Below are positions 11,101 through 13,307 of a DNA stretch of 60,133 bases, piece by piece. The translations under genes and the position numbers were made by a program. The notes under the pieces were generated by a model. It did no database searches, was not told the DNA's origin, and saw only the letters and a list, made by a program, of their open reading frames with translations. This stretch comes from Syntrophorhabdus sp. (GTDB taxonomy: Bacteria; Desulfobacterota; Syntrophorhabdia; Syntrophorhabdales; Syntrophorhabdaceae): contig JAAYAK010000272.1 in the NCBI GenBank assembly GCA_012719415.1, positions 1-60,133 of the forward strand, given 5' to 3'. Position 1 is the stretch's first letter; the number at the start of each line of letters is the position of its first letter.

Positions 11101-11781
11101 ATGCAGAGAACGGACACGATGAAGGCGGTTCCCCTTTTTGAGGGCCTTTCGGACAGGCAGCTCGAAAGCCTGTCCCGCGCCTTTCCTCGGCGCTCCTACG
11201 GTGCTGGCGAAACCATCTTCAGAGACGGGGAGCCCGCCGAAGGCTTCTATATCCTCCTTTCGGGAAGGCTGAAGATATACAAGCTCTCGATGGAAGGAAA
11301 AGAGCAGATCCTGCACATCATCGAGGCCGGTGAACCTTTCGCGGAGGTGGCGCTTTTCTCGGAGACCACCTTTCCCGCCTATGCCGAGGCGATCAGGGAG
11401 AGCGAGGTGATGTTCTTTTCGCGAAAGGCCTTCCAGCAGCTTGTCCGGGACGACCCCTCCATCATAATGAACATGCTCGCCATCCTGTCCCAGAGACTCA
11501 AGTATTTTACCCGCCTCGTGGAGGACCTGTCTCTCAAGGAGGTTCCCCAGAGACTTGCCGCGTATCTCCTGTTCCTTGCCGAAAGGGAAGGCTCGCCGCA
11601 GGTATCGCTCGGGATATCGAAGGGCCAACTGGCAAGCCTCCTCGGAACCATACCGGAGACCCTTTCGCGCATCACGGCGAAAATGGCGGGACAGGGACTC
11701 ATCGCGATGCAGGGACGACGCATCACCGTAGTCGACCGCAACGGCCTTCAGGCGCTTGCCGATGGGATGAAGGGACTGTAA
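11101..11781 (+). CDS. Crp/Fnr family transcriptional regulator
   Basis: 226 residues: a cyclic-nucleotide-binding-type beta roll (about 15-130, with GETIFRDGEPAEGFYILLSGRLKIY), a dimer helix, and a C-terminal helix-turn-helix (about 150-215, with ISKGQLASLLGTIPETLSRI). No FNR-type N-terminal cysteine cluster is present, so it is not an iron-sulfur FNR. The ATG at 11101 has no obvious Shine-Dalgarno sequence; the ATG at 11119 is an alternative start. The selenopeptide locus lies downstream on the same strand, separated by a repeat element and its own promoter. Confidence 0.88.
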   Translation: MQRTDTMKAVPLFEGLSDRQLESLSRAFPRRSYGAGETIFRDGEPAEGFYILLSGRLKIYKLSMEGKEQILHIIEAGEPFAEVALFSETTFPAYAEAIRESEVMFFSRKAFQQLVRDDPSIIMNMLAILSQRLKYFTRLVEDLSLKEVPQRLAAYLLFLAEREGSPQVSLGISKGQLASLLGTIPETLSRITAKMAGQGLIAMQGRRITVVDRNGLQALADGMKGL

Positions 11782-11783
11782 AA

Positions 11784-11930
11784 GAACTGTCTCAAGTCTC
11801 AGGTCGCAAGTCTCAGGTTCAAAGGCCAAAAAGATCCTCTGCCGGGTCAACAATCGTGTTGAAAACCGATCCCCCTCCACCGTCTTTCTTTGACGACCTG
11901 CGACCTGCGACCTGCGACCTGCCCGGGAAC
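11784..11930. repeat. Intergenic inverted-repeat element 3 (word: gacctgc / caggtcg)
   Basis: Directly after the regulator stop (TAAAAGAACTGTCTC) come words such as aagtctcaggtcgcaagtctcagg. A core, caaaggccaaaaagatcctctgccgggtcaacaatcgtgttga in short, closely matches the core of element 1. The right arm is four copies of gacctgc (about 11892-11920). The core ends ccaccgtctttcttt, which also recurs in element 5. Confidence 0.65.
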
Positions 11931-11939
11931 GGGGGTGGG

Positions 11940-11967
11940 TTGACCTTTGCTTATAGCCTGCTATAAT
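11940..11967 (+). promoter_or_regulatory. Sigma-70 promoter of the selenopeptide locus
   Basis: TTGACC (11940-11945) and TATAAT (11962-11967) with a 16-bp spacer are near-consensus. Transcription would start about 11974, leaving a leader of roughly 53 nt before the ATG at 12027. Confidence 0.7.
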
Positions 11968-12026
11968 TAATTCCATGCATGTGATTCACGATTCTTATCC
12001 GACGAGGAAAAGGAGGTGAGAAGCAC

Positions 12027-12149
12027 ATGAAGAAGGAGACGGAAAAAAGGACACTCGAGAGGGAGGCCTCGTTCTGGCACGGCATCAAGAAGGCCCTCAT
12101 AAAGGACACCACGAAGAGATGCCACAAGTGAAAAAGCTGAAAGGGTTGA
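12027..12149 (+). CDS. Putative selenocysteine-containing RiPP precursor peptide
   Basis: A short ORF starts at ATG 12027 behind a very strong ribosome site (aaaaggaggtgag). It encodes 34 residues up to a first in-frame UGA (12129-12131): a charged, helical leader-like part containing SFWHGIKKALIKD, ending TTKRCHK. Two more in-frame UGAs follow at 9-base steps (12138, 12147). Read as selenocysteine, the end becomes C-HK-U-KS-U-KG, a (Cys/Sec)-X-X repeat. A hairpin almost identical to the E. coli fdhF SECIS apex lies at the right distance. A radical SAM/SPASM maturase follows. Radical SAM maturases paired with Sec-containing peptides were reported by Haft and Basu (2011). Which UGAs are decoded and which terminates is unknown. 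Confidence 0.65.
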
Positions 12150-12168
12150 CGTTGCAGGTCTGCAACGT
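12149..12168 (+). promoter_or_regulatory. Bacterial SECIS-like hairpin
   Basis: ACGTTGCA - GGTC - TGCAACGT forms a perfect 8-bp stem with a GGTC loop (12157-12160). The segment TTGCAGGTCTGCA is identical to the apex of the E. coli fdhF SECIS. The loop begins 25 nt after the first UGA and 16 nt after the second, both inside the 16-37 nt range used for bacterial SECIS. The unpaired U of the fdhF stem is not present, because both Us pair here. Confidence 0.7.
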
Positions 12169-12175
12169 GAGCGTG

Positions 12176-12219
12176 AAAGGCAGTGAGGGCCAGGATGCCG
12201 TCCTTACTGCCTTTCTTTT
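12176..12219 (+). terminator. Attenuator-like hairpin between precursor and maturase
   Basis: aaaggcagtgagg (12176-12188) pairs with ccttactgccttt (12202-12214), with one G-U pair, and is followed by ctttt, giving an intrinsic-terminator shape. It lies between the peptide and the maturase start and would lower maturase relative to precursor expression, as is common in RiPP operons. Confidence 0.55.
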
Positions 12220-12230
12220 GGGTGATGCCG

Positions 12231-13307
12231 ATGAGGTCCATCGCTGAGAACGCCTTCGATTTCTTTGTCCAGATGCACCTGACCGAGAGATGCAACCTGG
12301 CCTGTACCCACTGCTACCAGGAGGGAAGCCCGGGGAAGGAAATGACCCTCGAGGAGATCGGCAGGGGCCTCGCCGACATTTCCGATACCGTCCGAAGCTG
12401 GTCGGAGACGTACGAGATACCCTTCGCCCCGAGCTTCAACGTGACCGGCGGCGAACCCTTCCTTCGAAAAGACCTTCCCGATATATTGCGGGGTATATCC
12501 CGATATGGGTTTGCCTCCTATCTGCTCACCAACGGGACCCTTGTGGACGGGGCAAAGGCGCGGATGCTCGCCGAACTTGCCGTCCGGGGAGTGCAGGTGA
12601 GCGTGGAGGGGCCGGAGGAACTGCACGAAAGGATTCGCGGAAAAAATAGTTTTTCCGCCGCCATGCGGGGGATCGGTCACCTTCTCGATGCCGGTATAAC
12701 GGTCACGATGAACGTGACCCTCTCCGAATTGAACGGGGATTCTTTTCCCGATATCGTGGCGATCGCCGCCGGCGCAGGCGTGCAGCGCCTCGGTTTCTCG
12801 AGGCTCGTGCCCTACGGGAGGGGTTCGGCCCTGTCGGGCAGGATGCTTGGCAGGGAAAGGTTGAGGAGGCTCTACGAAGAGATACTCTCACTTGCCGTCC
12901 CCGGCCTCGAGATCACAACGGGGGACCCCCTGGCGGCACAGCTCGCGGACGGCCGTGGCGGGATGGATCCCGACGCGCCTGCCCTGGGGGGATGCGCGGC
13001 GGGGATATCGGGGATCACAGTGCTTCCCGACGGGACGTTCACACCCTGCAGAAGGATAGGCATCCCCATCGGCAATATCCTGAAGGATGGTCTCAGGGAG
13101 GTGTGGGCGAATTCGGAGGTCCTCGCCGCCCTTCGTGACAGGGACTCTTACAGCGGGAAATGCCGCACCTGTGCCCGATGGGCGGGGTGCCGCGGGTGCC
13201 GGGCCATCGCATACGCCTGTTCCCTCTCCCGGGGCGGGAAGGACTTTCTGGGGGAGGACCCGCAGTGTTTCCTGGAAACAGCTCCAGGTTCCAGGCCTCA
13301 GGTTTGA
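12231..13307 (+). CDS. Radical SAM/SPASM peptide maturase (selenopeptide-associated)
   Basis: 358 residues from ATG 12231. A CX3CX2C cluster motif (C21, C25, C28 in ERCNLACTHCYQ) binds the SAM [4Fe-4S]. FNVTGGEPFLRKD gives the GGE motif. The C-terminal SPASM region (about 255-345) has at least eight cysteines (CAAG, PCRR, CRTCARWAGCRGC, CSLS, QCF) for auxiliary clusters. The start is placed after the attenuator hairpin; earlier in-frame GTG/ATG codons (12183, 12195) lie inside it. The last residues, APGSRPQV, are encoded by a repeat element. It probably modifies the upstream 34+ residue peptide. Confidence 0.88.
   Translation: MRSIAENAFDFFVQMHLTERCNLACTHCYQEGSPGKEMTLEEIGRGLADISDTVRSWSETYEIPFAPSFNVTGGEPFLRKDLPDILRGISRYGFASYLLTNGTLVDGAKARMLAELAVRGVQVSVEGPEELHERIRGKNSFSAAMRGIGHLLDAGITVTMNVTLSELNGDSFPDIVAIAAGAGVQRLGFSRLVPYGRGSALSGRMLGRERLRRLYEEILSLAVPGLEITTGDPLAAQLADGRGGMDPDAPALGGCAAGISGITVLPDGTFTPCRRIGIPIGNILKDGLREVWANSEVLAALRDRDSYSGKCRTCARWAGCRGCRAIAYACSLSRGGKDFLGEDPQCFLETAPGSRPQV

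Follow-up and report, generated by a model that had tools for sequence, protein, structure and literature searches.

Layout of the locus

The window, that is, the whole stretch of DNA analysed here (60,133 nucleotides), is one contig of a 3.7-Mb draft genome that is 99% complete and consists of 329 contigs; its closest named relatives at the locus described below are Syntrophorhabdus MAGs. The locus consists of a short gene with in-frame UGA codons, a hairpin of the SECIS type, a second hairpin resembling a terminator and the gene of a radical SAM/SPASM protein, referred to here as the maturase. The features are collected in Table 1.

Table 1. Features of the selenopeptide-maturase locus, with positions in the window
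Feature	Position	Strand	Basis
Sigma-70-like promoter with extended -10 (TTGACC-16-TATAAT with TG)	11940-11967	+	pattern match, relatives
Strong Shine-Dalgarno sequence of the peptide gene, AAGGAGGTGA	12010-12019	+	read directly
Predicted selenopeptide gene, MKKETEKRTLEREASFWHGIKKALIKDTTKRCHK-U-KS-U-KG-stop, 40 aa	12027-12149	+	sequence, homologous loci
UGA position 1, read as Sec; UGC in L076 and L081	12129-12131	+	homologous loci
UGA position 2, read as Sec; UAA in L075	12138-12140	+	homologous loci
Stop codon of the peptide gene, TGA here, replaced by TAA or TAG in roughly half the homologues	12147-12149	+	homologous loci
SECIS-type hairpin, 8 bp, GGUC loop	12149-12168	+	folding, spacing, covariation
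Strong terminator-like hairpin between peptide and maturase genes, AAAGGCAGUGAGG...CCUUACUGCCUUU + CUUUU	12176-12219	+	folding
Radical SAM/SPASM maturase gene	12231-13307	+	domains, alignment with relatives

From its ATG the peptide gene runs through 34 sense codons, ending ...KRCHK, before the first UGA is reached; the two codons read as selenocysteine (Sec) are 35 and 38. The original prediction, made from the window alone, had described a 34-codon reading frame with a near-consensus promoter and a strong ribosome site, in-frame UGAs at 12129, 12138 and 12147, and a perfect 8-bp hairpin with an apex identical to that of E. coli fdhF and a loop 25 and 16 nt behind the first two UGAs. All of these are present. 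The promoter scores 11 matches out of 12, against an expectation of 0.3 such sites per shuffle, and its counterpart is similar in the Syntrophorhabdus relatives L017, L018 and L028. It was also suggested that ordinary gene calling overlooks a gene that reads as 34 aa, and this one has apparently been missed, since callers stop at the first UGA.

The combination of UGA-6-UGA with a hairpin has a single occurrence in the 60-kb window, 100 shuffles gave none, and Rfam gives no meaningful match in 11700-12400. For the maturase, the ATG at 12231 is kept in relatives; the in-frame alternatives are ATG 12225 and GTG 12183. A long terminator-like stem, differing in sequence, also stands behind the hairpin in most of the 21 folded loci having room for it.

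Two further features lie upstream. Short tandem repeats (GTCTCAAGTCTCAG, CGACCTGCGACCTG) occupy 11789-11921, just 5' of the promoter, and similar repeats are seen in L017 and L018. The gene immediately 5' of the locus (11101-11781) encodes a Crp/FNR-type regulator, and its adjacency to the peptide-maturase pair is not kept in the other loci compared.

Reading of the UGA codons and the shared hairpin

Peptide genes with the same layout can be read in 70 loci of Desulfobacterota and Nitrospirota relatives, nearly all of them just 5' of a maturase gene. Across these 70 loci, which are related, so that the counts are not independent (collapsing them leaves 46 distinct 27-nt cores), the first position carries UGA 68 times and the Cys codon UGC twice; the second carries UGA 69 times and UAA once, with no Cys variant among the 70. 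When Cys codons are left out, UGA is found in 137 of 138 readings over both positions. At the terminal codon, in contrast, TGA (34 loci), TAA (24) and TAG (12) interchange among homologues, and codon 12147 is therefore a real stop, whereas the first two positions, with their conserved UGA/UGC, are unlike stops. The UGA/UGC conservation that the original prediction had looked for at three positions is thus seen at the first two and is missing at 12147. Of the several Sec residues it had considered possible, two stand; a third, at 12147, is ruled out because half of the homologues have TAA or TAG there.

An in-frame UGA aligned with a Cys codon in a homologue, one test for a selenoprotein, is found at position 1 (the UGC of L076 and L081); a Cys-only homologue in a Sec-less organism was not found among the genomes searched. 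One genome, G743, has two peptide-maturase pairs, of which L081 has Cys for the first Sec and L075 has UAA for the second.

The peptide itself is conserved on both sides of the first UGA. The core has the consensus C-x-K-U-K-(G/S)-U-K-(S/T/G)-stop, and the leader, rich in lysine and glutamate, contains K-(T/A)-L-x-x-E-A-x-F-W, or more loosely K-x-L-x-x-E-A-x-F-W. Codons between and after the UGAs vary while the residue is kept: AAG or AAA for Lys, GGC, GGT or GGG for Gly, and for Ser both AGC/AGT and TCC/TCG/TCT, which are two or three positions apart. Of the pairwise differences, a share of 0.47 is synonymous in the proposed frame, compared with 0.32 and 0.20 in its two alternatives, and a value of 0.47 was reached by none of 200 column shuffles (null mean 0.32). 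As judged from this comparison, the reading of UGA 12129 and UGA 12138 as selenocysteine codons, with exactly two Sec residues in the peptide, is well supported.

The hairpin, ACGUUGCA-GGUC-UGCAACGU, has a folding energy of -10.9 kcal/mol, and one of 200 shuffles is as good. A published model of bacterial SECIS elements specifies a 3-9 nt loop, a stem of 4-16 bp, G within the first two nucleotides of the loop, a distance of 16-37 nt and an energy of -7.5 kcal/mol or lower (PMC13188914); with its 8 bp and with a loop that follows UGA2 by 16 nt and UGA1 by 25 nt, the hairpin in the window agrees with the model in every respect for both codons. Its 13-nt apex, TTGCAGGTCTGCA, is identical to that of E. 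coli fdhF; of 5426 E. coli genomes, 5368 have a match to a 39-nt fdhF probe that includes TTGCAGGTCTGCA, with fdhF as the annotation. The fdhF spacing of 18 nt is similar to that of UGA2 here, but the hairpin described here would serve two UGAs, and it sits at or behind the stop codon.

In 69 of the 70 loci there is a hairpin whose loop has G within its first two nucleotides (loops GGUC, GGUCN, GGUU, GGUG, GGGC, AGGU and UGGAU). The loop follows UGA2 by 15-17 nt and UGA1 by 24-26 nt in 56 of 66 distinct cores, the choice of loop boundary shifting these spacings by one (15-18 and 24-27 nt). The stem covaries: the loop-closing pair is A-U, C-G or U-A, pairs 4 and 5 are U-A or C-G, and pair 6 is G-C or A-U. 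The covariation score is 0.254, compared with 0.151 in shuffles, and slid structures score far worse. Homologous loci with ordinary stops and no conserved hairpin, which would have counted against the original prediction, are thus not what is seen.

Some loci depart from this pattern. In eight, the loop is more distant, 22-38 nt after UGA2; in six of the eight (L022, L023, L041, L042, L093 and L104) an extra small stem, perhaps a structural spacer, can be drawn by eye between the UGA and the hairpin. L043 (genome G507) has the conserved peptide and both UGAs without a proper hairpin at the usual place, for which decay or a different SECIS is a possible explanation. In L075, L076 and L081, AAATGATT makes a stop codon in frame with the peptide overlap with the ATG of the maturase gene, and the hairpin falls within the first codons of the maturase.

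The maturase, its distribution and the selenium machinery

Both domains expected of a radical SAM/SPASM protein score over the Pfam cut-offs in the maturase (PF04055, 75.6 bits; PF13186, 39.6 bits), and in alignment A1 the CxxxCxxC motif and seven SPASM cysteines are invariant; by domains and cysteine motifs alike, it belongs to this class. No specific NCBIfam model passes its cut-off, the best sub-threshold scores being those of AhbD (147 bits, cut-off 500), ACGX (137, cut-off 400) and GeoRSP (131, cut-off 400). The best matches among solved structures are SkfB (6efn), PqqE (6c8v), 5wgg and anSME (4k37), which share the radical SAM core and the SPASM domain but match in sequence with only 43-85 bits. 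SPASM enzymes with small partner peptides of this kind often modify the partner.

A first scan with the maturase gave nine loci, and genomes were afterwards searched with profiles. The maturase is found in 7 of the 148 genomes searched from the phylum of the window, in 17 of 395 genomes of the phylum of a Geobacter locus (a set that overlaps the 148 in genomes) and in 59 of 396 sampled genomes (about 15%) of the phylum of a Nitrospirota locus; several Desulfobacterota lineages carry it. Searching the 148 genomes with an RNA model of the peptide core (R1) returns the seven maturase-positive genomes and one more, whose match is near a contig end. Eleven maturase-positive genomes have no adjoining peptide; R1 matches elsewhere in 10 of them, and nine of these unlinked matches read as the same peptide. 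As a rule there is one unit per genome. No conserved neighbourhood beyond the pair is seen in 31 loci compared, where only the maturase recurs and other shared genes occur in at most four; likewise, no dedicated transporter, protease or immunity gene is conserved with the unit. Linkage and co-occurrence suggest that peptide and maturase form a functional pair.

For the machinery of Sec insertion, selA (567 bits) and selB (393 bits) are both found over cut-off in the source genome. A genome devoid of selA, selB and selC would have spoken against the original prediction, and this is not the case; the search it called for was successful for selA and selB and unsuccessful for selC. The tRNA-Sec gene was not found in the 329-contig draft with Rfam (whose first look scored part of the candidates), ARAGORN or DNA similarity, which may reflect an assembly gap, and it was not detected in the three closest relatives searched. 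It is present in G097, a genome of the same family, and in four other carriers. Both the source genome (G000:C279:2353-2379, L180) and its relative G149 (G149:C98:115998-116025, L179) contain a piece of the 3' end of tRNA-Sec, 27 and 28 nt long, respectively, with the rest of the tRNA absent. These pieces resemble the remnant left by an element integrated at selC, which may serve as an integration site in these bacteria.

More broadly, selB is over cut-off in 13 of the 15 first carriers examined. In the Nitrospirota set it is over cut-off in 37 of 40 maturase-positive and 11 of 40 maturase-negative genomes (Fisher P 1e-9, uncorrected for relatedness of the genomes). The three maturase-positive genomes without such a match are possibly incomplete assemblies.

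A candidate two-gene unit and its alternatives

With a probability of about 0.86, we read the locus as a two-gene unit of the RiPP type, in which a precursor with two Sec residues is made via a shared hairpin, the maturase modifies its Cys/Sec array, and the product is more likely a cofactor than an antibiotic. SelB would decode UGAs 12129 and 12138 as Sec with the help of the one downstream GGUC hairpin, and translation would end at the next stop to give a 40-residue precursor: a conserved leader followed by the C-terminal core C-x-K-U-K-(G/S)-U-K-x, an array of Cys/Sec-x-x. With the strong terminator after the precursor, transcripts of the precursor would be many and those of the maturase few. 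The adjoining radical SAM/SPASM enzyme would then modify the array, the likeliest product being a thioether or selenoether crosslink, or a heterocycle of the thio/selenazole or oxazole type. A housekeeping redox or metal-binding peptide cofactor seems likelier than an antibiotic because the unit is single-copy as a rule, comes with no transporter, protease or immunity gene and is conserved across phyla. Gene structure, assignment of the Sec codons, hairpin conservation and co-occurrence with selB and with the maturase are supported by the sequences compared; from these we infer the enzymatic modification of the core, its chemistry and the biological role, the role being the weakest step of the explanation. 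Tentatively, and with rather less confidence than even odds, the product can be pictured as belonging to a new, widespread class of selenium peptide cofactors: two Sec residues, separated by only two others and inserted via one SECIS, would be joined to the adjacent Cys through crosslinking or cyclisation by a dedicated SPASM enzyme, giving a selenium-containing redox or metal-binding centre that serves basic metabolism in anaerobic Nitrospirota and Desulfobacterota.

It could be supposed instead that the first UGA is an ordinary stop, so that the peptide has 34 residues and ends in C-H-K, and that what follows is an untranslated regulatory RNA such as an attenuator or leader. A strong hairpin and a terminator do come next, and tRNA-Sec is missing from the source draft; yet this supposition is very improbable given the near-invariant UGA (137 of 138) ahead of a stop that varies freely among TGA, TAA and TAG, the Cys codon at position 1 in two homologues, the conservation of downstream residues through AGY/TCN serine changes and the co-occurrence of selB with the maturase. 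There is about as little room for the idea that one UGA is decoded efficiently while the other mostly terminates, making the two-Sec product a minor one. UGA2, at 15-18 nt from the loop in most loci, is indeed nearer to the fdhF spacing of 18 nt than UGA1 at 24-27 nt, and UGA1 is the codon replaced by Cys in L076 and L081. Against this, a stop at UGA1 blocks UGA2, so both need decoding for the conserved core to be made; 24-27 nt is within the published range of 16-37 nt (PMC13188914); and L075 retains UGA1 alone.

The UGAs might also encode Sec in a peptide that works as made, for example in redox chemistry or metal binding, with the radical SAM enzyme acting on some other substrate. This we consider unlikely. 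A C-x-x-U motif is typical for selenoproteins with a redox function (PMC13188914), and in 11 maturase-positive genomes the peptide does not adjoin the maturase; however, co-occurrence is near-perfect with the unlinked cases included, the peptide is laid out as leader plus core, its end overlaps the maturase start codon in L075, L076 and L081, and the SPASM domain is typical of peptide maturases. Modification of the peptide by its neighbour stays the preferred reading.

The closest known system is the thio(seleno)oxazole RiPP SbtA/SbtM (selenobacteriocin, TIGR04081/TIGR04082), which likewise combines a short Sec precursor, a SECIS directly 3' and a radical SAM/SPASM partner (PMC11002830). On a Cys substrate SbtM produces a thiooxazole, and with Sec substrates it gives the same loss of four hydrogens (PMC11002830). 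The core here, CxKUKxUKx, differs from the SGUG motif listed for selenobacteriocin. Membership of SbtA/SbtM is ruled out: the maturase scores 115 bits against TIGR04082 (cut-off 350), and the precursor, whose core lacks SGUG, gives no match to TIGR04081 up to E 10. The peptide has no match in Pfam or NCBIfam either. A Sec peptide with a radical SAM/SPASM maturase, as originally predicted, is well supported as a pairing by homologous loci, hairpin and selA/selB, and it falls outside the characterised SbtA/SbtM family. In the sources searched we found no literature on the present family, and our verdict from the sequences is that it probably represents a new family of the Sec-containing radical SAM RiPP type, distinct from SbtA/SbtM.

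In the literature covered, SbtA/SbtM is the one characterised family of Sec-containing RiPPs; the present precursor would be a second, unrelated-looking one with its own maturase subfamily, and a lead towards a selenium-bearing peptide product that is new. Its notable trait is a single hairpin shared by two Sec codons that are nine nucleotides apart, and a unit so small, with about 40 residues, two Sec and one hairpin, would make a handy test of one SECIS serving two UGAs. In an inventory from 2026, which covers 119 families of prokaryotic selenoproteins, selenobacteriocin (SGUG) is the only entry of such a type, and none has C-x-x-U-x-x-U in a peptide of about 40 residues (PMC13188914). The CxxU selenoproteins of that inventory (its Table 1) share the Cys-x-x-Sec motif with the peptide described here, but most of them are single-Sec redox proteins.
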